Shown piece after piece: positions 6,221 to 38,631 of a stretch of DNA of 44,951 nucleotides. Origin of the DNA: Planctomycetota bacterium (GTDB taxonomy: Bacteria > Planctomycetota > Planctomycetia > Planctomycetales > Planctomycetaceae). Every line of letters starts with the position of its first letter. Within the stretch, counting starts at the first letter, position 1. The stretch lies in assembly GCA_027618475.1 (NCBI GenBank), contig JAQCEJ010000037.1, forward strand, positions 1 through 44,951, written 5' to 3'. The translations under genes and the position numbers were made by a program. The notes below the pieces were generated by a model. It had not been told where the DNA came from, ran no database searches, and saw nothing but the letters and a program-made list of their open reading frames with translations.

Positions 6221-7927
6221 TCAGGTACGACCGAACACCATCAGCGTAATGTCGTCGTTCTGGGGTCTGCTTCCGGCATGGAGGCGGACATCTTCGCGAA
6301 TTGCTTGTCCCAGTTGACTCGCCGATAAGGACGAATTCGCCACCAGTTTCCGCAAGCGTTCGATACCGTACAACTCGTTGTTGTGGTTGAGAGCTTCGCT
6401 GACGCCGTCCGTGAAAATAACGACGGTCTCGCCGGGTTGCAGCGTCGTATGCACTGAGGTGTACGGGAAATCGTCGATGACTCCGATCGGGACGCCGATG
6501 TCCTCATCATCAAACGTATCGATCGACCCGTCGCGGCGACGAATCATCGGCGACATATGACCGGCGATGACGCACGAAAGTTTGTGTTTGCGGCAGTCCA
6601 TCATCGAGAGGACAAACGTCACGAATCGTCCTTCGACAGAACTCGAGCACATATGTTCGTTGATACGCATCGCGGCTTTCTCGACGTGTGGCACAAATTC
6701 CATCGTGCTACGGACGAAACTCGAAATTCGTGACATGACCAGCGAGGCGGCGACCCCCTTGCCGGCGACGTCGCCGAAGGTAAGACACATTCGATCTGCG
6801 CTGAGGGGTATGCAGTCGTAATAGTCTCCCCCGACCGCAAGAGCCGGTTCATAGTTGGCAAAAAATTCATAGCCGCCGACGGTGGGAAACGTCTTGGGTA
6901 AGATCGCCGCCTGAACGTTGCGAGCCATATTCATTTCGTTTTCGAGCCGCTGACGTTCCATATGTGAAACGAGCAGTTCGGCACTGTAATACGAAGCTGC
7001 CGCCTGCGAGGCGACTGCCATCAGCAAATCGAGATCGTTCTGCTTGAATTGGTGAAACGCGCTTTGCGTATCGATGTGAATTGCCCCCATCGGTTCTTCG
7101 TAGGGATTCAACATCGGAACGCACATCATCGATCGAATCGACAGATTCGAAATCGAAGCGCTGGCGTCGAATCGCGAGTCGTTCGAGGCATCGGCAGAGA
7201 GAATCCCCCGTTTCTCTTCGAGCACCTTTCGCAGAATCGTGCGACTGATTTTCACCGTCTCGTCTTCATCGTCTCGACGATGCTTCGTCGCATGGGGGAT
7301 GATCTGTCCGGAATCCGGGTCACGAAGAAGAATACATCCCCGATCGGCCTGCGGAAAAATCACGAAGAGCGTATCGAGAATTTTCGGCAGTAGTGCTTCG
7401 ATTCTTGTTGTTCCTGCCAGGGCACGGGTGATATCGACAATCGCCTTGAGCTTGACCTCGGGTTTGACGGTGAGCATCGAAAATGTATCGGTACTCGACA
7501 TGGAACTCATAATCTGCTCGGAATCGACATCGGTATCAGAGAGACGCACGCCGAGCGCCGTCGGTTTGATGTCGAGAGATTCCGGTGAAATCAGATCGGA
7601 CTCCGAATACTCACCCGTAGGCGTATTCTCTCCGTTGGTGTTGCCCGAATCGAAGCGAAACAGAATGGGACCGACCTTCACGCGATCATCGTGCTTGAGC
7701 GGCGTCGGTTCGAGCACGGGTTGACCGTTCAGGTAGGTGCCGTTCCCGCTGCCGAGGTCTTCGATGCAATAGGCTCCCTCGCGAACAACAACCCTCGCAT
7801 GTCGGCGTGAGACCATGTTCGAATTCAACATGACCTGGCAATCGGAATGCCGGCCGATGACCGTTTCGCTTTCTGAAAGCGTAAACGGGATGGTCTCGCC
7901 TCCCTGTAGCAGCAGTAATAATGCCAT
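6221..7927 (-). CDS. FHA-GAF-SpoIIE-type PP2C phosphatase
   Basis: A 568-residue signalling protein. An N-terminal FHA domain at about 5-85 carries GRHSDCQ, MVSRRHA and GSGNGTYLNG. A GAF domain follows at about 155-320 (IFPQADRGCILL, SIRSMMCVPML), then a short coiled linker and a C-terminal PPM/SpoIIE phosphatase at about 345-568. The phosphatase metal ligands are all visible: [22 protein letters not shown] and NDDITLMV. Such enzymes usually dephosphorylate anti-sigma-factor antagonists or other phosphoserine proteins. Start: ATG 7927 aligns exactly with the start of the upstream paralogue (MALLLLLQGGE against [11 protein letters not shown]). A GTG at 7999 overlaps the upstream stop (GTGA) and would add 24 residues. 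The pair is probably one operon. Confidence 0.88.
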   Translation of the reverse strand: MALLLLLQGGETIPFTLSESETVIGRHSDCQVMLNSNMVSRRHARVVVREGAYCIEDLGSGNGTYLNGQPVLEPTPLKHDDRVKVGPILFRFDSGNTNGENTPTGEYSESDLISPESLDIKPTALGVRLSDTDVDSEQIMSSMSSTDTFSMLTVKPEVKLKAIVDITRALAGTTRIEALLPKILDTLFVIFPQADRGCILLRDPDSGQIIPHATKHRRDDEDETVKISRTILRKVLEEKRGILSADASNDSRFDASASISNLSIRSMMCVPMLNPYEEPMGAIHIDTQSAFHQFKQNDLDLLMAVASQAAASYYSAELLVSHMERQRLENEMNMARNVQAAILPKTFPTVGGYEFFANYEPALAVGGDYYDCIPLSADRMCLTFGDVAGKGVAASLVMSRISSFVRSTMEFVPHVEKAAMRINEHMCSSSVEGRFVTFVLSMMDCRKHKLSCVIAGHMSPMIRRRDGSIDTFDDEDIGVPIGVIDDFPYTSVHTTLQPGETVVIFTDGVSEALNHNNELYGIERLRKLVANSSLSASQLGQAIREDVRLHAGSRPQNDDITLMVFGRT

Positions 7928-7995
7928 GTTCCAAGCCCGCTGGTTGTGTTCAGTCCCCCGTACGGTGCAAAACCATCCGGCGAATCCGAGGGGAT

Positions 7996-9678
7996 TCACA
8001 CGGCATTTCGGCCTAACGTCATGATGGTGATATCGTCGTTCTGCGGACGTCCGGCCGCATGTCGGCGGACATCGCTAAGCAAAGCCCGACCGAGTTCTTC
8101 CGCATCGGGTTTGCTGTTCTTGATGAATTCTCGCATTCGTTCCAGTGTATACAAATCTCCCGCCGGATTCATAGCCTCGTCAACGCCGTCGGTGAACAGG
8201 ACGATCGTTTCACCTGCAGAGATCGTGCGCGAGACCACTTCGTAGGGATAATCTTCCATCACGCCGATCGGCATTCCGACGGCGTCATCAGGAAATTCAT
8301 CGATTGATCCGTCGGGTCGGCGGATCATCGGTGACATATGGCCGGCATTGACCATTGTCATCTCGTTCGATTTCGGGTCGAGAATGATCAGCAAAAAGGT
8401 GACGAACCGTCCCTCAACCATATTGACGCACATATGATTGTTGATCGCCGTTGCGGCTTCACCGACATCGCTTACATATTGCATGACGTTCTGTACGCAA
8501 CTGGAGATTCGCGACATGATCAGCGCGCCAGGAACTCCCTTGCCGGCCACGTCGCCGAACGCGAGGCAGATGCGGCCGTCGTCGAGTTGAATCGACGAGT
8601 AATAATCGCCTCCGACTGCTTGTGCCGCATCGTACGAAGCGAAAAACTGATAACCGTCGGCCTGCGGCAATTCTTCGGGGAGCAATGCCCGTTGCACCGC
8701 TTGAGCGATCTGCATTTCGCCATCCTGTTTCATTTTTTCCATATGCGAGACCAGCAGGCGGGCATTTTCGTACGACAGAGCGGCTTGACCGGCGATCGCG
8801 ACCAGCAGTTCGAGATCGTCGTCGCGAAACTGTTTGAAGGCGTTTTGCGTGTCGATGTTGATGATGCCGATCGGCTCGCCATTCAGATCGAGCAGGGGGG
8901 CGCACATCATGGAACGGATCGTCAAATTCGAGATCGATTCGCTGGCTTCGAACCGGGCATCATTGGCGGCGTCGGCCGAAAGAATCGCCGATTTTTCGGA
9001 AAGAACCTTGTTGACGATCGTTCGGCTCAATTTGACCGAATCGTCGTCCGATGATTTGCGGTGCTTGACGGCCTTGGGAATCAATTTGCCCGATGCCGTA
9101 TCCTTAAACAGAATGCAGCCGCGGTCGGCGTGAGGAAAGACGTTGAACAGCGTCTCCAGAATTTTGGGAAGGAGTGCTTCAGGACTAACCGTCCCCGCAA
9201 GGTTGCGGGTAATTTCGAGAACAGCTTTCAGCTTTGCTTCCGGTTGCACTTCGAGAAGCCCGAATCCGCCGGCGGGACGGACGGTTCCCATCACCGTTCC
9301 TTCCTGGGCTTCGTCCCCACCGAAATCGATGCCGAATTCGTTGGGAGGAGACGCTGTTTTCGGTGAAGATGCCGATGGTGCCGGAGTCGGCGCACTGGCC
9401 GTGTAATGAAACAACATCGGGCCGACTTTAATGCGGTCGTCGTGTTTGAGTTCGGTAGGGGCTGTGATCTGCTGGCCATTGACGAATGTGCCGTTGCCGC
9501 TGCCGAGGTCTTCGATGAGATGTTTGCCGTTATTAGTGACGATCTGTGCGTGACGCCGGGAGATCATGTTCGAATCGAGTCGGACTTCGCAATCCGGATG
9601 CCGACCGATGACCATCGGCGATTTATTGAGATCAAAAGGGGTCGATTCCCCTCCTTGTAACAAAGTCAGCGTTGCCAT
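7996..9678 (-). CDS. FHA-GAF-SpoIIE-type PP2C phosphatase, paralogue
   Basis: A 560-residue protein with the same layout as its downstream neighbour: FHA at about 5-85 ([30 protein letters not shown]), a linker rich in Ala, Pro and Ser at about 110-145, GAF at about 165-320 ([23 protein letters not shown]) and a SpoIIE-like phosphatase at about 345-556 ([31 protein letters not shown]). The position that is Asp in the neighbour's GGDYYD is Ser here; the preceding Asp, the more critical metal ligand, is kept. The ATG at 9678 has GGGAGTG upstream. The high similarity over the full length points to local duplication. The two FHA domains may read phosphorylation by a Ser/Thr kinase encoded elsewhere. 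Confidence 0.9.
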
Positions 9679-10043: not shown

Positions 10044-11039
10044 TTAGATGCCTCCTTCCGGATGACCGATCGCCTTGAGCAGCGAACGTTTGACGGCGGT
10101 ACGTGCCAATTGAACTTTGTAACCGTTGTTCGACAGCGGCGTTGCCTGCGAGACGGCAATATCTGCGGCGAGATTCGCCGCGTCGACGGTCAGAGCGTTG
10201 CCGAGCAAAATTGTGGCAGCGGCGGTCGCAACGATCGGTGTCGGAGCGACGTGCCCCATCACGATTTTCGCCGATTGCACCACACCACCTTCGATTTCGA
10301 CACACGAGGCCGCCGCCGCAAGAGGCCAGTCGAGACCCTCCATCTGCAGCACTTCATAAGTGGCACTCTGTTGTTGACGGGCGACCGGCAACCAGATGTG
10401 CGAAATCAATTGCCCCGGCTTGAGCACCGTCACCCCCTGATTTGACAATTTGGGAGTGATGTAGAAATGCTCGAGCGGAATCGATTCGCTCTGTTGCGGG
10501 TTGGGGCCGATCACTTCCACGCGGGCACCCCATGCCACAAGGCCCGGAGCAAACCGTGACGCGGAGACGAATTTTGCCGCTCCCTGGTTGCCGAATATCG
10601 CGTGGTAGCGGTTATCGCCCGCTTCGACGAGGGAGACCCCTCGTTCGATCGCAAGCAATCCGTATCCACTACGGAAATACCAGCAGTTCGGCAGATGACA
10701 CAAATCGCCGCCGAGCGTTCCCATGTGCTGGATCTGAATCGCCCGAATGCCGTCGATGACATGTCTCAGCGACTGGTAGTTGTTGAGCAACGGATGCTTT
10801 TGCATCTCGTCGAGCGTCACAAGCGAGCCAATGCGCACGCCTCCGTCTTCCTCACGGATTTCGGAAAGCGACGGCACATTTTTCAGATCGACGACGCGGT
10901 CCGGAGTAACCAGCTCGCGTTTCATCAGGCTGATCAAGTCGGTGCCGCCGGCGAGAACCGCCGTGTTGCCGCCGTGATCGTTCAACATTTCCAAGGCTTC
11001 CGCCTCGGTATCCGGTCGAGCATATTCAAACGGTCTCAT
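10044..11039 (-). CDS. Molybdenum hydroxylase FAD subunit (PaoB/YagS-like)
   Basis: A 331-residue FAD-binding subunit of the xanthine dehydrogenase/aldehyde oxidoreductase family. The N-terminal FAD-binding part carries AGGTDL (residues 30-35) and TLGGDLCH, the pyrophosphate-binding loops; CO-dehydrogenase flavoprotein C-terminal features follow (IAVSQATPLSNNGYKVQLAR). In PaoB-type proteins a cysteine-containing insert after the second loop binds a 4Fe-4S cluster. Here only Cys114 and Cys119 (LCHLPNCWYF) are seen there, so the presence of that cluster is doubtful. The start ATG overlaps the stop of the molybdopterin subunit as ATGA, giving strong translational coupling. Role: passing electrons from the Fe-S subunit to an acceptor. 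Confidence 0.9.
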   Translation of the reverse strand: MRPFEYARPDTEAEALEMLNDHGGNTAVLAGGTDLISLMKRELVTPDRVVDLKNVPSLSEIREEDGGVRIGSLVTLDEMQKHPLLNNYQSLRHVIDGIRAIQIQHMGTLGGDLCHLPNCWYFRSGYGLLAIERGVSLVEAGDNRYHAIFGNQGAAKFVSASRFAPGLVAWGARVEVIGPNPQQSESIPLEHFYITPKLSNQGVTVLKPGQLISHIWLPVARQQQSATYEVLQMEGLDWPLAAAASCVEIEGGVVQSAKIVMGHVAPTPIVATAAATILLGNALTVDAANLAADIAVSQATPLSNNGYKVQLARTAVKRSLLKAIGHPEGGI

Positions 11040-13243
11040 GCAGCACCTCCCTTCAGCGCTTCCAAAACCCGTTGTGGTGTTAATGGCAACACGGGTACGC
11101 GAACGCCGAGAGCGTTGGCGACCGCGTTAGAAATGGCGGCTCCCGGAGCGATCACCGGCGGTTCACCCAGACCGATCACTCCCCGTGCGTATTCGCTGTC
11201 GGGCTGGTACATTTCGACGACGAGTTCGCCGATGTCGCCGATGCGCGGCAGTTTATAGGTTTCCAGGTCGGTGTTGATGTAACGGCCGGTCTTGTTGTCC
11301 ATGATCCGTTCTTCGCTGAGGGCAAAAGCAATCCCCATAATCATGGCACCATAGACCTGACTTTTCGCCGTCATCAGATCGACGATCAAACCGCAGTCCT
11401 GGACCGCAACAAATTTGTTGATGCGGACCTTTCCGGTTTCGGTATCGACCGAGACATCGGCCATCTGCACCCCCCCGACACCGTCGCTGGTCAAGCCGTC
11501 GTCTGCAGGGCCTTCGCCCATGACTTCCAACGGCATGGCCCCGATGAGCCCGCACGCTTGTTTCCACGAGCAGACTTCGTTTCCGCCGGACAGAATCTTT
11601 CCGTCTTTCGCCGTCAGCGTGCCAGCATCGACGTTGTGCTTTGCGGCGACGAGATCGAAGATCTTTCCGAGAGCGGAAATGGCTGCCCGGCGATTCGGTC
11701 CCGAGACACCGCCGATGGTCGTGCTTCCGCCCGAAGGGCCGGAGCGCGGGTACTTGCTGCTGCCGATCGTCACTTTAACCGACGACAACGGCAGTCCGAA
11801 CGTTTCGGCCACGACGATGGCAATCGCCGTTCGCGTCCCGGTGCCGATATCCTGACTGCCGGCGATCGATTCGACGGTTCCGTCGGGATGAACGCGGAGC
11901 AAACAGGTTGCCGCGTGAGACCGGCCGCCCCAGGTGTGCAGCGCCATGCCGAGCCCCTGTTTCACCGGTCCATTATCAGCACCGCTGGGATGCCATTTGG
12001 CTTTCCAGTCGATCAGCTTTGCACCAATCTTCATTTCTTCGGCGTAGACGTCGGCACGCGGCGTCTGATCGAGGTTTTTCATGAAGACGTCGTAACTGTC
12101 CATTGCCAATTTATCGGCCAGGTCGGCAATCGCCGTCTGGCTGATGGCACACGCCTGCGGATGGTTCGGTGCCCGCCATGCCTGTTGCGGGCCGGTGTTG
12201 GTGACCAGTCCGCTTGCGCGGCGATTCAGGTTCTCGAACGTAAAGACGTACGGCATCACGCCCGGAGAGATCGTCCCGCCGTTGAGACCTGACGAACCCC
12301 AGTGGTGAGAATCCCACGCGGTGATGCGTCCTTCTTCGTCAGCGGCGATCGTGACTTCGACAAAGCCCGACGGTCGAATACCTGCAGACTTCAGTTCGGT
12401 CGCACGATCGAGCATCAATTTGACGGGGCGTTTGATTTCTTTGGCGAGTTCAGCACAGGCCAATCCCCATTCACCAGCGGCGAATTTCGAGCCGAAACCT
12501 CCGCCGATGTAGTTACAGACGATTTCGACGTTTGCGGCATCCAGCCCGAGTGGTTCGGCGAATTGTCCGGCGGTTCCCGAAACGTTTTGTGTCGAGAGAT
12601 GCACGAGCAGCGAATCGTCACCGGTCCATTCACAGTGTGAACCATGCGGTTCGAGACACATGTGACTGATGGTCGCGATGCCGTAATAGCCCTTATGTAC
12701 GGCTTTGGCGTTCGCGACCGCCGCGTCTACGTCGCCGTTCTTGTCATCAGCGAGCGGCTTAACGCGAACCATATGGCCGAGTTTCGCCGATTCTTCTTTA
12801 ACCACCTTTTCATCGTCAACGATTTCGGTATGTTCGGCGTCGAGCGCTTCGGCCGCTTTCAAGTCGTCTTCATCGACGAAATGGGCCAGCGGTTCGAGTT
12901 CGAGCTTGATCGCACGAATGCCGTCGGCGGCGTAATCGGGCCGTTCGGCGGCAACGGCGGCGATGATCTGGCCGTCGTAGAACAACTCATCGCCTACATC
13001 CTGCAACACATGCACGGCGAGTACGCCTTTTACTTTCTTTGCTTCCTCGACGTCGAGTTTGGCGATGCGGGCGTGTCCCGTCTTGCAGGTCAGCAGTTTG
13101 CAATAGGCGGTTCCTTTGGTGTTGATGTCTGCCGAGTATTTCGCATGTCCTGTGGCCTTTTCGACCCCTTCCATGCGGGGGACGTCGGTCCCGATAAGTT
13201 TATTTTCTTCGCGTGGTCCCCAGGCGACTGAAAGTTCTGCCAT
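11036..13243 (-). CDS. Molybdenum hydroxylase molybdopterin-binding catalytic subunit
   Basis: A 735-residue large subunit of the xanthine oxidase/aldehyde oxidoreductase family. The N-terminal hammerhead domain starts near GTDVPRMEGVEKATGHAKYS. The cofactor-binding part includes GGGFGSKF, GGRSHAATCL and SQDIGTGTRTAIAI. Near the C-terminus VIGLGEPPVIAPG supplies the invariant catalytic Glu at about residue 694. No signal peptide is present; in this class the folded heterotrimer is exported on the Tat signal of the small subunit. The ATG at 13243 has AAAGGAGGAG upstream, two bases after the preceding stop. A longer frame to 13282 overlaps the upstream gene and is rejected. The substrate (purine, aldehyde or other N-heterocycle) cannot be decided from sequence. 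Confidence 0.92.
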   Translation of the reverse strand: MAELSVAWGPREENKLIGTDVPRMEGVEKATGHAKYSADINTKGTAYCKLLTCKTGHARIAKLDVEEAKKVKGVLAVHVLQDVGDELFYDGQIIAAVAAERPDYAADGIRAIKLELEPLAHFVDEDDLKAAEALDAEHTEIVDDEKVVKEESAKLGHMVRVKPLADDKNGDVDAAVANAKAVHKGYYGIATISHMCLEPHGSHCEWTGDDSLLVHLSTQNVSGTAGQFAEPLGLDAANVEIVCNYIGGGFGSKFAAGEWGLACAELAKEIKRPVKLMLDRATELKSAGIRPSGFVEVTIAADEEGRITAWDSHHWGSSGLNGGTISPGVMPYVFTFENLNRRASGLVTNTGPQQAWRAPNHPQACAISQTAIADLADKLAMDSYDVFMKNLDQTPRADVYAEEMKIGAKLIDWKAKWHPSGADNGPVKQGLGMALHTWGGRSHAATCLLRVHPDGTVESIAGSQDIGTGTRTAIAIVVAETFGLPLSSVKVTIGSSKYPRSGPSGGSTTIGGVSGPNRRAAISALGKIFDLVAAKHNVDAGTLTAKDGKILSGGNEVCSWKQACGLIGAMPLEVMGEGPADDGLTSDGVGGVQMADVSVDTETGKVRINKFVAVQDCGLIVDLMTAKSQVYGAMIMGIAFALSEERIMDNKTGRYINTDLETYKLPRIGDIGELVVEMYQPDSEYARGVIGLGEPPVIAPGAAISNAVANALGVRVPVLPLTPQRVLEALKGGAA

Positions 13244-13245
13244 GA

Positions 13246-13872
13246 TTACGCTCCTCCTTTCTGCGCCAGTTCCATCGCACACGCGGTGATGCCCGCATAG
13301 GTGCCACAGCGACAGATATTGCCACCGAGCCCGTGGCGAATTTCTTCGAGCGAGGCTTTGGGATGTTCGTTAAGAAAAGCACGCGTTGCCATCACAAAGC
13401 CCGGAGTGCAGAAACCGCACTGCATGGCATCGTGTTTGACAAAACCCGACACGACCGGATCGACCTGGTCGCCGTTGCGCAGCGATTCGACCGTATTGAT
13501 CGTTTTGCCGACGCATTCGATAGCCAGCCGGCTTCCGGCGAGCGTGGCTTTGCCGTCGACAAGAACCGTATCGGCACCGTCGGCACCTCGGTCGTCGACT
13601 TCTTTACATCCGGTAAAATTCAGGTCGTCCCGCAGGACTTCGAGCAACGTCACACGGGGTTCGACGGTCACGTCGTAATCTTTGCCGTTAACATTTAACG
13701 TGATTGTGGTCGGTTCGGCCGACGTGATTTTTGAGATGTTGTTATTTTGTGCGGCGGCCAACTCTTGAGAGGTGGCCAGTGCGGTCGCGGCAACGGCGGC
13801 ACCCGACCCCTTCAAGAAGTTGCGTCGATTAAACGACGGCCCGCTGCGATTCTTGTCTTTCCGGTCCAACAT
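13246..13872 (-). CDS. Molybdenum hydroxylase small subunit, one 2Fe-2S site lost
   Basis: A 208-residue iron-sulfur subunit of the PaoA/YagT-CoxS type. A Tat signal (NRRNFLKGSGAAVAATALA, residues 15-33) begins the protein, so the complex is exported folded. The helical C-terminal cluster domain is intact: Cys152-x2-Cys155 (QCGFCTPG) and Cys187-x-Cys189 (ICRCGTY). The plant-type ferredoxin domain keeps its frame (TGCKEV, TVLVDGK) but the four expected ligands are replaced by Asp93, Asp98, Asp101 and Gly113, so the second 2Fe-2S cluster cannot form in the usual way. ATG 13872 follows CAGGAGAG; a longer upstream frame has no such site. It is the first gene of a four-gene operon. Confidence 0.92.
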   Translation of the reverse strand: MLDRKDKNRSGPSFNRRNFLKGSGAAVAATALATSQELAAAQNNNISKITSAEPTTITLNVNGKDYDVTVEPRVTLLEVLRDDLNFTGCKEVDDRGADGADTVLVDGKATLAGSRLAIECVGKTINTVESLRNGDQVDPVVSGFVKHDAMQCGFCTPGFVMATRAFLNEHPKASLEEIRHGLGGNICRCGTYAGITACAMELAQKGGA

Positions 13873-32652: not shown

Positions 32653-35600
32653 TTACGGATAGGCCGGGTCGGGGAAGACGGTTCCCAGTGATGGGAAGAG
32701 GAAGTTGGAACCGCTGAAGGTGTTGAACATGCTCTGTACGGTACCGCTCAGGACGAAGAAGTTTCCGCCGTCAACATTGGTGCCGTCCAACAGGTCGAGT
32801 ACAGGATTGGCATTGTGGCCATGGACCTGGAAGTATCCGATAACCGGTCGGTCAATATCGAGTCCCGTGATGGGATCGGCGTGAGTTGCCTTGAGCGGAT
32901 CGTTATTAGTAAATCGTCCTGTCTGAGTGATCGATGCAGAGATCGAGGTTCCTTCTCCGAGAACGTCGATCTGTTCACCTCGGTTGCCGAACTTCGTGTC
33001 GACCGGGTTTCCTGACGCTCCGAAGACCAGGTCGAGGTGTGCCACGGGATCCTGATAAACCGTATCGAGCACCGGAGACGCATTGTCGATCGAATTCGTC
33101 GGGTTGACCGAGCGCACGGGGAAGATGCGAATATCATACGTGCTGTTTTCGGGATCGACCGGGTCGATGTCGGTATTTCCTGAAAACAAGTTGTCGTTAA
33201 CGACCGCATTCATGCGTGTGCTCGATCCGACGGAGATGGCCAGCCCGTTGTTGACGTTGTCGGCAATGGTATTGCTCTGTGCGATGATTAACGTGGTGAA
33301 GACGTCGGCGCTCTGATTGTTTACGTAATCCTGAGGATTATCGGGATCGCCATCGACGAATATCGGATCGGAAGGATACGAATTCGCCAACGTCGCCAGT
33401 AACAGCCCTTGTGAGTTGTTGTTACTAAGTTCATTCGATTCGATCAGCGAACTGCTGCCGGCGGCCCTTACGTCGACCGACGCCCCGCGTCCGCTGTTGT
33501 TCGTACCAATGCTATTCTGCAGCGTGTACGTTGTCGTACCACCATCATGCAGATAACGGAAACCGTCTTGAATGTTGGCATCGGCCAGCGAATCGTTAAT
33601 GACGACATTGTTCGTCCCGCCGGTGGTATGCAAACTGAAACCGTCGGACGTGTTGCTGTTGCTGACGACGGTGTCGATCAGGCCGATGTTGACATTGGTT
33701 ATGTCGTCGAGTTGGCCATTCAGGTCGATGTTGACGCCGTCGGATGTGTTACCAAAAATATCAAGTCCGTCAAGATCGTAGTCGCGAGTCGTTGCGCCGG
33801 CGATGCTGTTGGTGAGAATGCGGATGCCGAAGTCATTGCCCGTAAATGTTTGAGTGCTCGTCAACGCATCGGGATCGTAGACACCGAAAATATCGACATC
33901 GTGATTGGAAAGTTCTTCGGCGTTGAGGAAGATACCATCGCCATTGCCAGTGAAGAAGTTGTTGGAGATGAGAGAGGCATTGCCTGTTAATCCGAACGAC
34001 GAACTGTCTTCAGAAAGAACGCGAACGCCAGAACCGGCGTTGGTTTCAAAAGAGTTGCTGTCGATTAAGGCGACGATTTCAGCGTCGTTCAAGCTATGCA
34101 AGAATACGCCGTCGTCGTTGCCGATGAATTGATTGCTGTTGTTGATCGTGACGTTGACCGTATTGACAGGGGCGATCTGATTCACGGTGAGTTCGAATCC
34201 GCTGTCGCCGTTATTTGCGATCACCGAATTGCTGATGCTCGGATCGATGACCGCGTCATCAAGAACGCTGATATCGATGCCGTCGCTCAGATTTCCGGAA
34301 ACCACGGCGCTGGTGACCTGGAAATTCGTGATGGTGCCGGTTCCGAGCAGATCGATTTCAAGTCCGCGGTTGCCGTTGCTGTTTAAGGTTCCTGAGATCG
34401 CGGCGTTGGTGATAATCGAGTCGTCAACCGTGATATTCATCCCGTCATTGGTAACGTTTTCATCGGAGAATCCGAAGTAACTGAAGTTGTCGATCGTCGA
34501 TCCGTTAAGCAGTGTGAGGCTATTGCCGGACTCCTGATTTCGGCTGTTGTTCGAGCTGATGATCAGCGTTGTAACATCCGCATTATCCATATTCAGATCG
34601 AGGCCGTTGGAAAAGTTTGTTGACAGCGAGGCCGATTCATTGAGCAGCAGGTTATCGATACGGGCGTTGGTGTCGAGGTTGATTTCGAGGCCGTCACCCA
34701 GGTTCGTGTTGAGTTGACCGGAAAATTCCGCATTGGTGATGAGTGCAAAGTCGCTGGCGTTGATTTCGACGCCGTCGAGGTCGTGGTTCGTCACCTGAGA
34801 GTTCGAGTCGACGGAAATGTCAAGCGTCGAGCCGATTCCTGTGACATTCGTCTGAATTCCATATAAACCGTTGTTGCGAATCGAAGCGAAACGGAATGCG
34901 GCCTCGGCATCGGCACCGTCCAGGATGTTAAGGACGAATCCACTGTCGCTATTTTCCGAGATCGTTGAATTGAGAATGTCGAACGTGGCAATCGATGCGG
35001 CATCGGTGACTGTCGTGTTGATTCCGTCTCGCGACAACTGGTCGGTGATGGTCGCTTTATCCAGTTGAACGTCTAATGCCGCTCCACCAGAGACATTCAA
35101 CGTCATGCCGTCCAACGCATTGCCTATTATGCGAGTCTGGTCGAAATTCAACGAGGCGGAGCTTCCCGGTCCGATGACGCGACCGTCGATTCCGGATTCG
35201 AAATTGTTGGAAATCGAACGTCCGATGAATTCGTTCGGAGCCGTTGCGGTTAACGTGCTGCCGTTTTGTGCCAGGAAGAAGATACCATCCCCAAAGTTGC
35301 CGTTGATTTGAGTGTTGCCATCGAGTGTGATATCGGCGGTCGAATCGTCGGCGAAGACAAAGAGCCCTGTGCCAAAGTTCGATGAGACAACGGTATTCAG
35401 TAAATCAACCGTCGTCGTCGAGTTGTCCGTCGCCGTAGTGATGATACCCAATGATCCATTGTTGCTGACGCTGGACTGATCCAGGCTGAGGCTGTTGGAT
35501 GCATTCGTGGCGGCGATCAATTGAATACCGGCCCCACTGTTGATCGTAAAGTTGCCGTTTGCGATGTCGGCCGTGAATTGCCCTCCGTTTGAGGTCGACA

Positions 35601-38600
35601 CATTCATGCCAATTCCAGAGTTGTCCATCGCCACGAGTCTGGTGATGTCCATATCCACAGTCGATCCGGCACCATTGATCGTGCCGTTGATACCGTCGCC
35701 TCCGTTAGTCGAGAACGAAGCGTCGTTTCCGCTAATGGTCATGGTCGAGCCGTTTACCGCCGAGAATTCAAAACCATGATTGCCATTGTCCGTAACGGCG
35801 GCATTGTCGAAGCTGACGGCGGCATCGGAATCATCCAGCGAAATGAGCAAACCGTCGTTACCACTGTTGGTGATGGTCGTGGCATCGGTAAACGATGCCG
35901 TCACAGTCGAACCGCTGCTGGCTCCGAGTGCAACGCCATTCAACGCAGAGTCGTCGACCGTCGTTCCGCTCAGTGCAACGGTGGCATCGGAATTGTCGAT
36001 CGCCCCGAAAATACCATGTGATGTGCTGGTCACGAAGGTTGAATCGACCGCCGTCAGTGAAAACTCGGAGTTGTTCGTGGCGGAAAAATCGAATCCGCTG
36101 TCGCCACTAAAGTCGGCAGTGACGGTGTCGAGATTGAAGACGGCGCTGGAACCGTTACCGGTCACTGCAGCAGAGAAGGCATCGAGCGTATTATTCGAGA
36201 AATTGCTGTTCGAGATGTTTGCTACCAGATCCCCACCGTTCTGAACCAGGAATTGCGCCCCGTTCGAACCGTTGGTCTGAGCATCGGCGTTGTCGATCGT
36301 CAGAGTGACGTCAGAGTCGTCTGCGAAGATATTAACAGCGTTGGACCCGTTATTGGCCAATGAACCGTTGACGAAGGAAATGGTCGCCGTCGAATCAACA
36401 GTGGCCGACCCGGCGATGGCGCTGATTCCCGCGTTGCCAAGATCGGAATCGAGGAACGAAGCATTCAGCGTTGAATTGTTAAAGACGACGAAGAGGAAGC
36501 CGTTGTCCGTGGCTCCGGTTGCCGGTGTCGGATCGACGAATAAGTTCAGCGTCGAACCGTTAAAGACCGTGGTGTCGAAAGCGTCCCCACCGGCATTTAA
36601 GAACGAGCCGTCGGTGATGTCGATCGTGAGCAGCGAATTGTTCTGCACGAGGACGTTCATGCCGTCCAGACCGGCATTGTCGACGGTGGTGTTCGTCATC
36701 GTCAGATTGCTGTTCGCCGCTGTATTGGAGAAGTTCATGAGAAAGCCGTTGCCACCGGCGTTCGAGAACGTGCTGTCGTTAATGGTCGCTGTGAACAGTC
36801 CTCCGGCCGAAGTATTGATTTCCATACCGTGGCTTCCGGCATTGGAGATATCGGTATTGTCCATTGTGAGATTCAGGGTACCAGCAACATCGTTGATGAG
36901 AGCACCGCGTCCTTCGGTGACAAGGGCGCTAGAGGCATTTGTAAAGGTGCTGTCAGCGATGTCGATATTGAGTGTCCCCGCTGCGGTGGCAGCGAGGTTG
37001 AGTCCGTTGCGGTTGGCATCGGCCATGAAGTCGGTGACCGTGGCATCGATGGTGGAAGCATTGGCTACGATCCGCAGGGCATTCAATCCGCCCGATGCGG
37101 TGGCGAAATTATCGATCGTGAGATCGAGCGGTTGTGTCGCCGTGTTTACTACGCTGACGCCGTTTGAATTGATACCGGCACCAAGAGCGAAGGACGAGTC
37201 GACGATACGGCCGGTTCCGGAAGCATTGACGAGATTGAAGGCCGGGCCGTCTCCGGTGACGTCGACGTTATTGATATCGAAGTCCTTGATATTTACACCC
37301 GAGATCGCACTATGTCCGATCGTCGTATCGATGATGTTGAAACCGCTGACTTCATTGTTATTGGCCAGAGTGATGACCGGGCCGACCGCTCCTTCGGTAA
37401 CGAACGGCTTGGGTGCGGCGTCGTCGAAGCCCATCGTGCTGAATGCAAACGTTCCACGATTGTGGACATCGAACGTATGCGGCACCCCTTCACCCAGCAA
37501 TCGCTGATTGTTCACGAGCGTTACACCACCGATCAATGGCGTGGCCATCGTCGTATTACCGCGCCAAACCAGTGTGATATCGGAGTTGGACGACTGCAAC
37601 GTTGTAAACGGGTCTTCAAATGTGCCGGTTCCCGGTGCGGCGTTGCTGTCATCTACGTGTGTGATGATGTACGGAAGCAAGGTTCCCGGGTTGATGGCTG
37701 GTGTGTCAACCGGGCTCTGGGATGCTCCCATGGCGACGCGATAGCTACGAAAGACCTGATCGTATCGTTTATCGAGGACGGTTCGTTCCGGAAACGGCGT
37801 AAGCATCGGCCTTCCGGAGAATGTAATCTGCACACCGACGGTTATCCGCGTTCCGAACAGACTGTCATCTGTCACAGCCACCTCGGTCGCAATGTCGTTT
37901 GTGAAATTGAAGAACAATCGTCCGCGAAAGCCGACGAGGTCATCGTCGGTAGGGGTGTTGTAATAATAAGTGCCGACGTATCCGCGAGCCCATGAATAGC
38001 CGAGCAGCGGCATACCGTATTCGAGGTCGACCCCTTTCATGGCGTTTTCGAACAATCCGGTATCCTGAAACAGAATCTGATTTCCCTCGAAGAACGGGGT
38101 CATGCCGGTGGGGAGAACGCCGATTTGATTCGAGTCGGAATTCGTCGGCAGATAAACGTTACTGCGCAATTCAAAGTTCTGATCGATCCATTCGACGCCG
38201 AATGTCAGTTGATCGTAGCGGTTTTCGCTGGGAGTCTGATCGGAATCGAAGAACGCCGACACGCCGATCAACTGATTCGTTTCTTCCATGTAATGGCGAT
38301 AACCCAAGCCGGCGTTGACGCCGGGAAGATGGTCGTCGTCGGTGATAAATAGGCGAGCAGTACCGAAGATGATGCTGAGATCGGCGAATTCATAGAGGGG
38401 GACAAATCCACCAATAGTGGAGTATCCGCCCTGATAACCGACGCCGCTGTCGATCTGTTTTTGGAACAGCAGGTAAGCGCCGTGACTTCCCAGGGGAGCG
38501 GAGCCGCTGAAATTCGAACCGTTCGCATAATACGAACCATCGGAGACGGAGATCGTTCCCGAATCGTCCGTCAGCACGGACTGCGCATGGGATGTTCCTA

Positions 38601-38631
38601 CACAGACCATCGGTATCAACAACAGGAGCAA
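32653..38631 (-). CDS. Giant inverse-autotransporter-like protein with beta-helix passenger
   Basis: A 1992-residue surface protein. A hydrophobic N-terminus (LLLLLIPMVCVGTSHAQ) is a signal peptide. Residues about 50-272 form an outer-membrane beta-barrel of inverse-autotransporter type: alternating strands such as GAYLLFQKQI, GLGYRHY, TFGVEWI, GYVGTYYYN and ITVGVQITFSG. From about 330 to the C-terminus runs a passenger of repeated rungs of roughly 25-30 residues, rich in Asn, Asp, Ser and Thr, with NxGxDG-type turns (for example VDNAGLDGMNVLVQNNS), expected to be a right-handed parallel beta-helix. No C-terminal anchor is seen. It may act as an adhesin or surface-layer fibre. The start is uncommon: no ATG precedes the signal peptide, TTG 38631 is used, and an in-frame TAG lies six codons upstream. 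Confidence 0.85.
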   Translation of the reverse strand: MLLLLIPMVCVGTSHAQSVLTDDSGTISVSDGSYYANGSNFSGSAPLGSHGAYLLFQKQIDSGVGYQGGYSTIGGFVPLYEFADLSIIFGTARLFITDDDHLPGVNAGLGYRHYMEETNQLIGVSAFFDSDQTPSENRYDQLTFGVEWIDQNFELRSNVYLPTNSDSNQIGVLPTGMTPFFEGNQILFQDTGLFENAMKGVDLEYGMPLLGYSWARGYVGTYYYNTPTDDDLVGFRGRLFFNFTNDIATEVAVTDDSLFGTRITVGVQITFSGRPMLTPFPERTVLDKRYDQVFRSYRVAMGASQSPVDTPAINPGTLLPYIITHVDDSNAAPGTGTFEDPFTTLQSSNSDITLVWRGNTTMATPLIGGVTLVNNQRLLGEGVPHTFDVHNRGTFAFSTMGFDDAAPKPFVTEGAVGPVITLANNNEVSGFNIIDTTIGHSAISGVNIKDFDINNVDVTGDGPAFNLVNASGTGRIVDSSFALGAGINSNGVSVVNTATQPLDLTIDNFATASGGLNALRIVANASTIDATVTDFMADANRNGLNLAATAAGTLNIDIADSTFTNASSALVTEGRGALINDVAGTLNLTMDNTDISNAGSHGMEINTSAGGLFTATINDSTFSNAGGNGFLMNFSNTAANSNLTMTNTTVDNAGLDGMNVLVQNNSLLTIDITDGSFLNAGGDAFDTTVFNGSTLNLFVDPTPATGATDNGFLFVVFNNSTLNASFLDSDLGNAGISAIAGSATVDSTATISFVNGSLANNGSNAVNIFADDSDVTLTIDNADAQTNGSNGAQFLVQNGGDLVANISNSNFSNNTLDAFSAAVTGNGSSAVFNLDTVTADFSGDSGFDFSATNNSEFSLTAVDSTFVTSTSHGIFGAIDNSDATVALSGTTVDDSALNGVALGASSGSTVTASFTDATTITNSGNDGLLISLDDSDAAVSFDNAAVTDNGNHGFEFSAVNGSTMTISGNDASFSTNGGDGINGTINGAGSTVDMDITRLVAMDNSGIGMNVSTSNGGQFTADIANGNFTINSGAGIQLIAATNASNSLSLDQSSVSNNGSLGIITTATDNSTTTVDLLNTVVSSNFGTGLFVFADDSTADITLDGNTQINGNFGDGIFFLAQNGSTLTATAPNEFIGRSISNNFESGIDGRVIGPGSSASLNFDQTRIIGNALDGMTLNVSGGAALDVQLDKATITDQLSRDGINTTVTDAASIATFDILNSTISENSDSGFVLNILDGADAEAAFRFASIRNNGLYGIQTNVTGIGSTLDISVDSNSQVTNHDLDGVEINASDFALITNAEFSGQLNTNLGDGLEINLDTNARIDNLLLNESASLSTNFSNGLDLNMDNADVTTLIISSNNSRNQESGNSLTLLNGSTIDNFSYFGFSDENVTNDGMNITVDDSIITNAAISGTLNSNGNRGLEIDLLGTGTITNFQVTSAVVSGNLSDGIDISVLDDAVIDPSISNSVIANNGDSGFELTVNQIAPVNTVNVTINNSNQFIGNDDGVFLHSLNDAEIVALIDSNSFETNAGSGVRVLSEDSSSFGLTGNASLISNNFFTGNGDGIFLNAEELSNHDVDIFGVYDPDALTSTQTFTGNDFGIRILTNSIAGATTRDYDLDGLDIFGNTSDGVNIDLNGQLDDITNVNIGLIDTVVSNSNTSDGFSLHTTGGTNNVVINDSLADANIQDGFRYLHDGGTTTYTLQNSIGTNNSGRGASVDVRAAGSSSLIESNELSNNNSQGLLLATLANSYPSDPIFVDGDPDNPQDYVNNQSADVFTTLIIAQSNTIADNVNNGLAISVGSSTRMNAVVNDNLFSGNTDIDPVDPENSTYDIRIFPVRSVNPTNSIDNASPVLDTVYQDPVAHLDLVFGASGNPVDTKFGNRGEQIDVLGEGTSISASITQTGRFTNNDPLKATHADPITGLDIDRPVIGYFQVHGHNANPVLDLLDGTNVDGGNFFVLSGTVQSMFNTFSGSNFLFPSLGTVFPDPAYP

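Follow-up and report, generated by a model that had tools for sequence, protein, structure and literature searches.

The operon and its iron-sulfur subunit

The window, a stretch of 44,951 nucleotides from a planctomycete genome (GCA_027618475.1), contains an operon for a three-subunit molybdenum hydroxylase. Its first gene encodes an iron-sulfur subunit of 208 amino acids resembling PaoA and CoxS (13246-13872, minus strand; Fer2_2 with E = 3.9e-25, PaoA, 5g5g_A, with E = 1.2e-32), with the Tat signal RRNFLKG near its N-terminus (TAT_signal, E = 1.1e-7). The two other genes lie downstream on the same strand and encode a PaoC-like molybdenum cofactor subunit (11036-13243, minus strand), recognized by its MoCoBD_1 and MoCoBD_2 domains (PF02738, PF20256), and a PaoB-like homologue of FAD subunits with 331 residues (10044-11039, minus strand). 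The motifs GGGFGSK, WRAPNHPQ, QDIGTG and GLGEPP of the molybdenum subunit are intact; GLGEPP aligns with the GVGELG region of PaoC, and its Glu is presumably the catalytic Glu of the active site.

FeS II is a plant-type [2Fe-2S] cluster with four Cys ligands, and the window protein does not have this ligand set. Within the stretch TGCKEVDDRGADGADTVLVDGKATLAGSRLA, taken from the translation of 13246-13872 (minus strand), D93 (codon 13594-13596), D98 (13579-13581), D101 (13570-13572) and G113 (13534-13536) align with the columns in which homologues have their four Cys, so that the whole ligand region (13534-13596, minus strand) is altered. An earlier note on this DNA had claimed this replacement, and translation and alignment confirm it to the exact coordinate; we also agree that each Cys-to-Asp change takes two base changes (TGY to GAY). 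The other cluster had been called intact, and by translation and alignment the FeS I ligands C152, C155, C187 and C189 (13306-13419, minus strand) are indeed all there, within a Fer2_2 domain that has its four Cys. At E-values up to 0.01 Pfam matches Fer2_2 (PF01799) and the TAT signal in the window protein and does not match Fer2; as a control, Fer2 was matched in five of five Cys-bearing relatives and in none of five other proteins with a broken FeS II ligand set.

Structure prediction gave a model of the window protein with a mean pLDDT of 77.8 and a minimum in the signal region, weaker also at residues ~91-100 and 181-190, which are the two ligand loops. The predicted fold matches the iron-sulfur chains of aldehyde oxidase, CO dehydrogenase, 4-hydroxybenzoyl-CoA reductase and PaoA, and according to the model the subunit keeps a normal fold despite its emptied ligand positions.

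Distribution of the ligand loss

How widespread is the loss of the FeS II ligands? Among 170 genomes searched from the taxonomic family of the window, 78, including that of the window, contain the iron-sulfur subunit at E-values up to 1e-45. We call a locus with a broken FeS II ligand set a loser and a locus that retains CCCC a keeper, writing the set as the residues in the four ligand columns. The set is broken in 36 of the 78 genomes in 15 different ways and reads CCCC in the other 42. The losers comprise QDDG and SSSS (six each), DDDG (five), DSDS and FCDS (three each), KDDG, SDDS and EADN (two each) and the single cases DVDG, EVDG, EDDS, DADG, YCDS, GDDG and DTDS. Position 1 is thus occupied by D, E, K, Q, G, S, F or Y, position 2 by D, S, A, V, T or C and position 4 by G, S or N, whereas position 3 is nearly constant, with D in 30 and S in 6 of the 36. 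The four loci of the FCDS/YCDS group have a one-residue insertion and a single Cys left in the loop; where loops have gaps, the letters assigned vary with the alignment, as FCDS/YCDS reads DSDS and L125 reads ELDG pairwise. FeS I reads CCCC in all 36 losers and in 39 of the 42 keepers, the three remaining keepers being cut by contig ends or interrupted in this region and therefore not fully readable, and all 78 loci were used for the ligand counts. One CCCC member, L158 (G008:C142), has an in-frame TAA that interrupts the iron-sulfur subunit gene. A loose R/K-R twin-arginine-like pattern is found in 78 of 78 members.

Outside the family, the broken set occurred in 19 of 20 loci sampled from the 22 best-scoring matches in other families of the class, mostly with Ser in the ligand columns, and one locus read CCCC. 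Such Ser-type losers often have Ser in all four columns. Three of the 19 retain one Cys (CSSA once, SCSA twice), which together with the four FCDS/YCDS loci makes seven losers with a single Cys at a ligand column. The ligand set is CCCC in the 12 other-family loci of the class in our first set (L021-L032) and in all 36 loci from beyond the Planctomycetota (L058-L093, mostly Acidobacteriota).

The earlier note had raised the recurrence of Asp/Asp/Asp/Gly as a clade: the loss of the Cys does recur, but DDDG itself is narrow, being found in 5 of the 78 loci, namely the window and one clade of four. It had also named Cys in all relatives as the sign of a sequencing or assembly error. Such an error is excluded, because broken sets recur in 36 of the 78 family genomes, among them the single-contig genomes G120 (KDDG) and G175 (SDDS). 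Among the matches listed, no report of FeS II ligand loss in this enzyme family was found in the open-access literature.

Number of origins and selection

For the history of the losses a tree was built from 111 concatenated trios of subunits with the ligand loop excluded; it includes 6 loci from Acidobacteriota/KSB1 and omits the fragments L122, L140, L178, L184 and L191 as well as the unrelated operons L090 and L205. These are quick trees without a mixture model, in which long rows were flagged. The tree requires at least 8 changes of the FeS II state, 6 of them forced by strongly supported branches. A single origin of the Asp type is ruled out, as a clade uniting the full 28 losers that have Asp at position 3 is rejected with p-AU 2.6e-61; a clade of the core of 11 Asp-type rows that includes the window is not rejected (p-AU 0.176). 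Judged from these sequences, FeS II appears to have been lost about five times or more, the approximate count being made up of the S-type clade (25 rows), EADN with K/QDDG (one or two losses), the core, GDDG/SDDS and FCDS/YCDS. Since one Asp-type origin is rejected, the choice of Asp at position 3 looks convergent, and this convergence suggests that the residue contributes to the structure of the emptied loop.

It could be imagined that the losses were fewer and that the four Cys of a single ancestral loser were later regained by recombination in some lineages. The nesting of keepers among losers in the tree would fit such a history, as would the loop, which without its ligands has a mean identity to Cys-bearing relatives of other families of 0.541 in keepers and 0.500 in losers. 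Fer2 outside the loop, however, shows no such pull (0.529 in keepers versus 0.542 in losers). A further point in favor is L204 (G016:C408), where at the start of a contig, upstream of an ordinary molybdenum subunit, an XdhA-like Fer2 is joined to a Fer2_2 of the planctomycete type, but its iron-sulfur protein, lying at the contig edge, stems either from an exchange of domains or from a join made during assembly. Altogether we regard regain after a single loss as improbable.

Substitution rates were compared in 20 of the 36 losers and 22 of the 42 keepers, chosen as close relatives. Mean dN of the Fer2 domain was 0.016-0.095 at dS 0.51-1.57 in five loser groups and 0.006-0.101 at dS 0.27-1.04 in six keeper groups, and the ratios are rough because some pairs approach saturation in dS. 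The ligand loop is somewhat freer in the losers, as its mean dN is higher there (0.018-0.099 versus 0-0.082 in keepers). To judge from these rates, the emptied Fer2 domain is maintained under purifying selection, much like that of its Cys-bearing relatives, which speaks against decay as a pseudogene.

A nested order of losses in the FAD subunit

Missing from the earlier note was the finding that the FAD subunit of the same operon lacks three of the four presumed ligands of a [4Fe-4S] cluster and is altered in a motif near the FAD. The four Cys in a loop region of PaoB-like relatives, which we take to be the ligands of the extra [4Fe-4S] cluster, and the motif HPS(S/D) have their counterpart at 10524-10706 (minus strand), where one Cys of the four is left and HPSx reads SASR. 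The four-Cys pattern is present in 12 of 12 chosen Acidobacteriota/KSB1 loci, in 2 of 11 other-family loci of the class and in none of 66 family loci, and each of the 67 family loci with a readable region, L204 included, has an altered FAD subunit. The change near the FAD leads from HPS(S/D/T/N) to xxSR. The ADP-binding loops (AGGTDL and GTLGGD, both kept in the window, and their variants) are mostly retained, and FAD may for this reason still be bound. Furthermore, Pfam finds a FAD_binding_5 domain in the window homologue, and its predicted fold still matches FAD subunits, PaoB among them.

The order of these losses was surveyed in 142 loci, 128 with and 14 without a readable FAD region, including 12 loci from Acidobacteriota/KSB1 and omitting L090 and L205. 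Four Cys, HPSx and FeS II are all kept in 31 of the 128 loci, among them the more PaoABC-like operon L264. Thirteen loci have lost the four Cys and kept HPSx and FeS II; 37, including L204 with its chimeric-looking iron-sulfur protein, have lost the four Cys and carry xxSR with FeS II kept; and in 47, which are all of the readable losers, the four Cys are gone, the motif is xxSR and FeS II is lost as well. No locus among the 128 breaks this nested order, in a classification whose motif classes were defined after viewing the sequences and whose xxSR call was made by eye in 7 of the 47 losers. On the tree xxSR is one event that marks one clade of 93 rows; inside this clade FeS II disappeared repeatedly, and among the sampled loci it did so nowhere else. 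The nesting therefore links FeS II loss to one clade and not to many separate motif changes.

The molybdenum subunit and the genomic neighborhood

The molybdenum site is conserved in most losers. Among the 35 losers with a molybdenum subunit, GGGFGSK is exact in 33, WRAP(N/P)HPQ is found in 32, QD(L/I)GTG in 28 and G(L/N)GEPP in 31, and the remaining cases are gaps, near variants or L187. At this last locus (G125), the molybdenum subunit alongside an EADN iron-sulfur subunit has motifs that read FRGSHHPH, SDTGTG and GFVDPP, which is perhaps a further step of loss that has reached the active site.

The genome of the window (G000) has one XdhC-type gene. Upstream of the operon lies a gene of the D-glutamate cyclase family (PF07286; 14616-15422, minus strand), whose neighbor cluster occurs, among the matches listed, in 11 of the 78 family loci, 6 losers and 5 keepers. 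Downstream are two adjacent, slightly overlapping FHA-GAF-SpoIIE genes (6221-7999 and 7996-9678, minus strand). Elsewhere in the window a repetitive protein of 1992 residues, rich in Asn, Ser and Thr and secreted-looking by eye, is encoded at 32653-38631 (minus strand).

A neighboring cytochrome was considered as new electron acceptor and rejected. Among 240 neighbor clusters, two occur at two or more loci and show CxxCH in half or more of their members, one in 5 keepers and the other in 2 losers, and beyond this one pair no heme-c-like (CxxCH) neighbor is common to losers. A secreted-looking protein with CxxCH is encoded some 3.5-7.5 kb downstream of the iron-sulfur gene in the related keepers L136, L144, L145, L150 and L152 and at no loser.

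A co-occurring cysteine-rich protein

SEC3 is a small exported-looking protein with five Cys (C-x2-C ... C-x-C-C) that are invariant in 28 of 28 aligned copies, and it has neither a Pfam match (E up to 0.01) nor a solved relative (E up to 1). It adjoins the operon in 13 of the 78 family loci, 12 losers and 1 keeper, many loci having short flanks (L116-L118, L121, L129, L132, L142, L146, L180, L188-L190 and L192), and forms a module there together with a DUF1326 protein and another protein that looks secreted; no paper naming DUF1326 was found in the open-access literature. In the genome of the window SEC3 lies on another contig (G000:C132:3295-3687, L236). SEC3 is present in 66 of the 78 family genomes with the trio and in 5 of the 92 without it (Fisher p 2.7e-28, with shared ancestry ignored), and one of these five, G016, does have a trio, with the chimeric iron-sulfur protein. 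The same comparison in a class draw of 397 genomes gave 127/152 versus 16/245 (p 7e-59, again with shared ancestry ignored).

Does SEC3 compensate for the lost clusters? All 10 f3 genomes that were picked for having SEC3 keep the four Cys and FeS II in the operon, as do 6 other f3 genomes in which SEC3 is absent (one of them with the PaoABC-like L264), and 4 f2 genomes picked for lacking SEC3 have lost the four Cys. In these genomes SEC3 thus does not track cluster loss, and the idea of a compensating partner was rejected. Nevertheless, SEC3, the DUF1326 protein and the second secreted-looking protein are candidates for an undescribed partner module, with SEC3 as candidate partner of the molybdenum enzyme.

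Mechanism and alternative explanations

Ligand loss, its recurrence, its nested order and the selection on what is left can be read from the sequences themselves. We propose, with a probability of about 0.6, that the operon encodes a PaoABC-type enzyme of the xanthine oxidase family, a molybdenum hydroxylase with three subunits that is located in the periplasm, and that the distal half of its electron transfer chain has been taken apart step by step. The first loss would have been that of the extra [4Fe-4S] cluster in the FAD subunit, then the motif near the FAD would have changed from HPSx to xxSR, and finally FeS II would have been lost repeatedly, cutting the enzyme back to molybdenum and FeS I. 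The emptied Fer2 domain would bind no cluster and be kept as a structural link between FeS I with the molybdenum subunit on one side and the FAD-subunit homologue on the other, and the FAD module would likewise be retained for structure. The loop formerly wrapped around the cluster may be satisfied by Asp at position 3 and, in the other large group, by Ser.

How could electrons leave such an enzyme? FeS I is buried in known structures, and an exit without FeS II is therefore not obvious. Most likely the electrons from molybdenum and FeS I would take another route through a soluble periplasmic partner that docks at the former FeS II site. The usual route, according to the excerpted text of a paper on xanthine oxidoreductase, leads from molybdenum to Fe/S-I and on to Fe/S-II, the one nearest to FAD (PMC8097209). 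From this order of centers follows the break that the earlier note had expected, as the path should no longer reach FAD once FeS II is missing.

The main alternative is that no outlet would be needed. The molybdenum site could oxidize and reduce substrates in turn, as in a reaction of the transhydroxylase, dismutase or hydratase type, and FeS I would be a mere electron buffer. Such a redox-neutral enzyme would be consistent with the known outlets (FeS II, the [4Fe-4S] cluster and the surroundings of the FAD) being lost or altered while molybdenum site and FeS I are kept under selection, and there are precedents in another family of molybdenum and tungsten enzymes, acetylene hydratase and pyrogallol transhydroxylase. 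However, we know of no redox-neutral example in the xanthine oxidase family, and close relatives in the same clade have FeS II intact together with nearly identical molybdenum motifs. We consider this explanation rather unlikely, and a shade more doubtful is the suggestion that goes with it, namely that here an outlet-free periplasmic member of the xanthine oxidase family works redox-neutrally with molybdenum and FeS I alone and that the family displays the steps by which it arose from an oxidoreductase.

Could the operon instead encode a decaying enzyme, or a pseudo-enzyme kept for another role? The motifs of the molybdenum site are also lost in L187, and the FAD subunit is altered in every readable locus of the family, L204 included. 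Against this stand the purifying selection on both the Fer2 and the Fer2_2 domain and the intact molybdenum motifs of most losers, and we judge decay distinctly improbable. The view of the earlier note that the change is real and selected is supported by the many cases, the purifying selection, the nearly always intact FeS I and molybdenum motifs and the normal modeled fold. Its other proposal, an acidic metal site, we have discarded as a candidate, because the replacements vary at positions 1, 2 and 4 and another large group is of the Ser type; more generally, it is very improbable that Asp or Ser coordinates another metal site or an oxygen-ligated [2Fe-2S] cluster, as the Asp at position 3 in 30 of the 36 family losers despite the rejected single origin, and the frequent Ser at all four columns of the Ser type, are outweighed by charged, polar, small and aromatic residues at the other three positions that are incompatible with a common metal site.

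Enzymes of the xanthine oxidase family are textbook examples of a fixed chain of molybdenum, FeS I, FeS II and FAD. The loci described here form a natural deletion series, from the full ligand set through loss of the ligands of the extra cluster to loss of the FeS II ligands, kept under selection, and therefore the need for FeS II and FAD, and the destination of the electrons without them, become directly testable. This family of exported molybdenum enzymes in planctomycetes may no longer send electrons along the route of its relatives. Moreover, family-based annotation can assign two [2Fe-2S] clusters where the Cys can hold only one.

Comparison with known systems

The periplasmic aldehyde oxidoreductase PaoABC of E. 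coli (5g5g) has, like the window operon, three subunits with the same folds of the iron-sulfur and FAD subunits, and the window molybdenum subunit can be aligned to PaoC over nearly its whole length. According to the excerpted text of its description, the iron-sulfur subunit of PaoABC has a Tat leader, and PaoA carries both [2Fe-2S] sites (PMC3958847). The Tat signal on this subunit is common to both systems, whereas the window subunit is without the FeS II ligands. PaoB, annotated as FAD-binding iron-sulfur subunit, has four Cys in a loop region of which its window homologue lacks three; these Cys presumably hold a [4Fe-4S] cluster, of which the excerpted text makes no mention for PaoABC. The gene order is FeS-Mo-FAD in the window versus paoA-paoB-paoC in E. 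coli. Against the NCBIfam equivalogs the window proteins also score below the cut-off, with 141.4 of 322 bits for PaoA and 308.1 of 1180 bits for PaoC.

4-Hydroxybenzoyl-CoA reductase (1rm6) is, like the window enzyme, a member of the xanthine oxidase family with similar iron-sulfur and FAD subunits, and contains FeS I, FeS II, FAD and an additional [4Fe-4S] cluster. Both [2Fe-2S] clusters are retained in the aldehyde oxidoreductase MOP of Desulfovibrio gigas. The extra cluster of 4-hydroxybenzoyl-CoA reductase is named in the title of a reference within the excerpted paper on PaoABC, which also describes MOP as an enzyme of the xanthine oxidase family that works without FAD domain (PMC3958847). 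The window operon shows the reverse truncation, as MOP has dispensed with the FAD domain and kept both clusters, whereas here the homologue of the FAD subunit remains and it is the FeS II ligands that are gone. We know of no described counterpart of this combination, and the loss of the FeS II ligands with retention of the FAD homologue is a new variant inside a known family.
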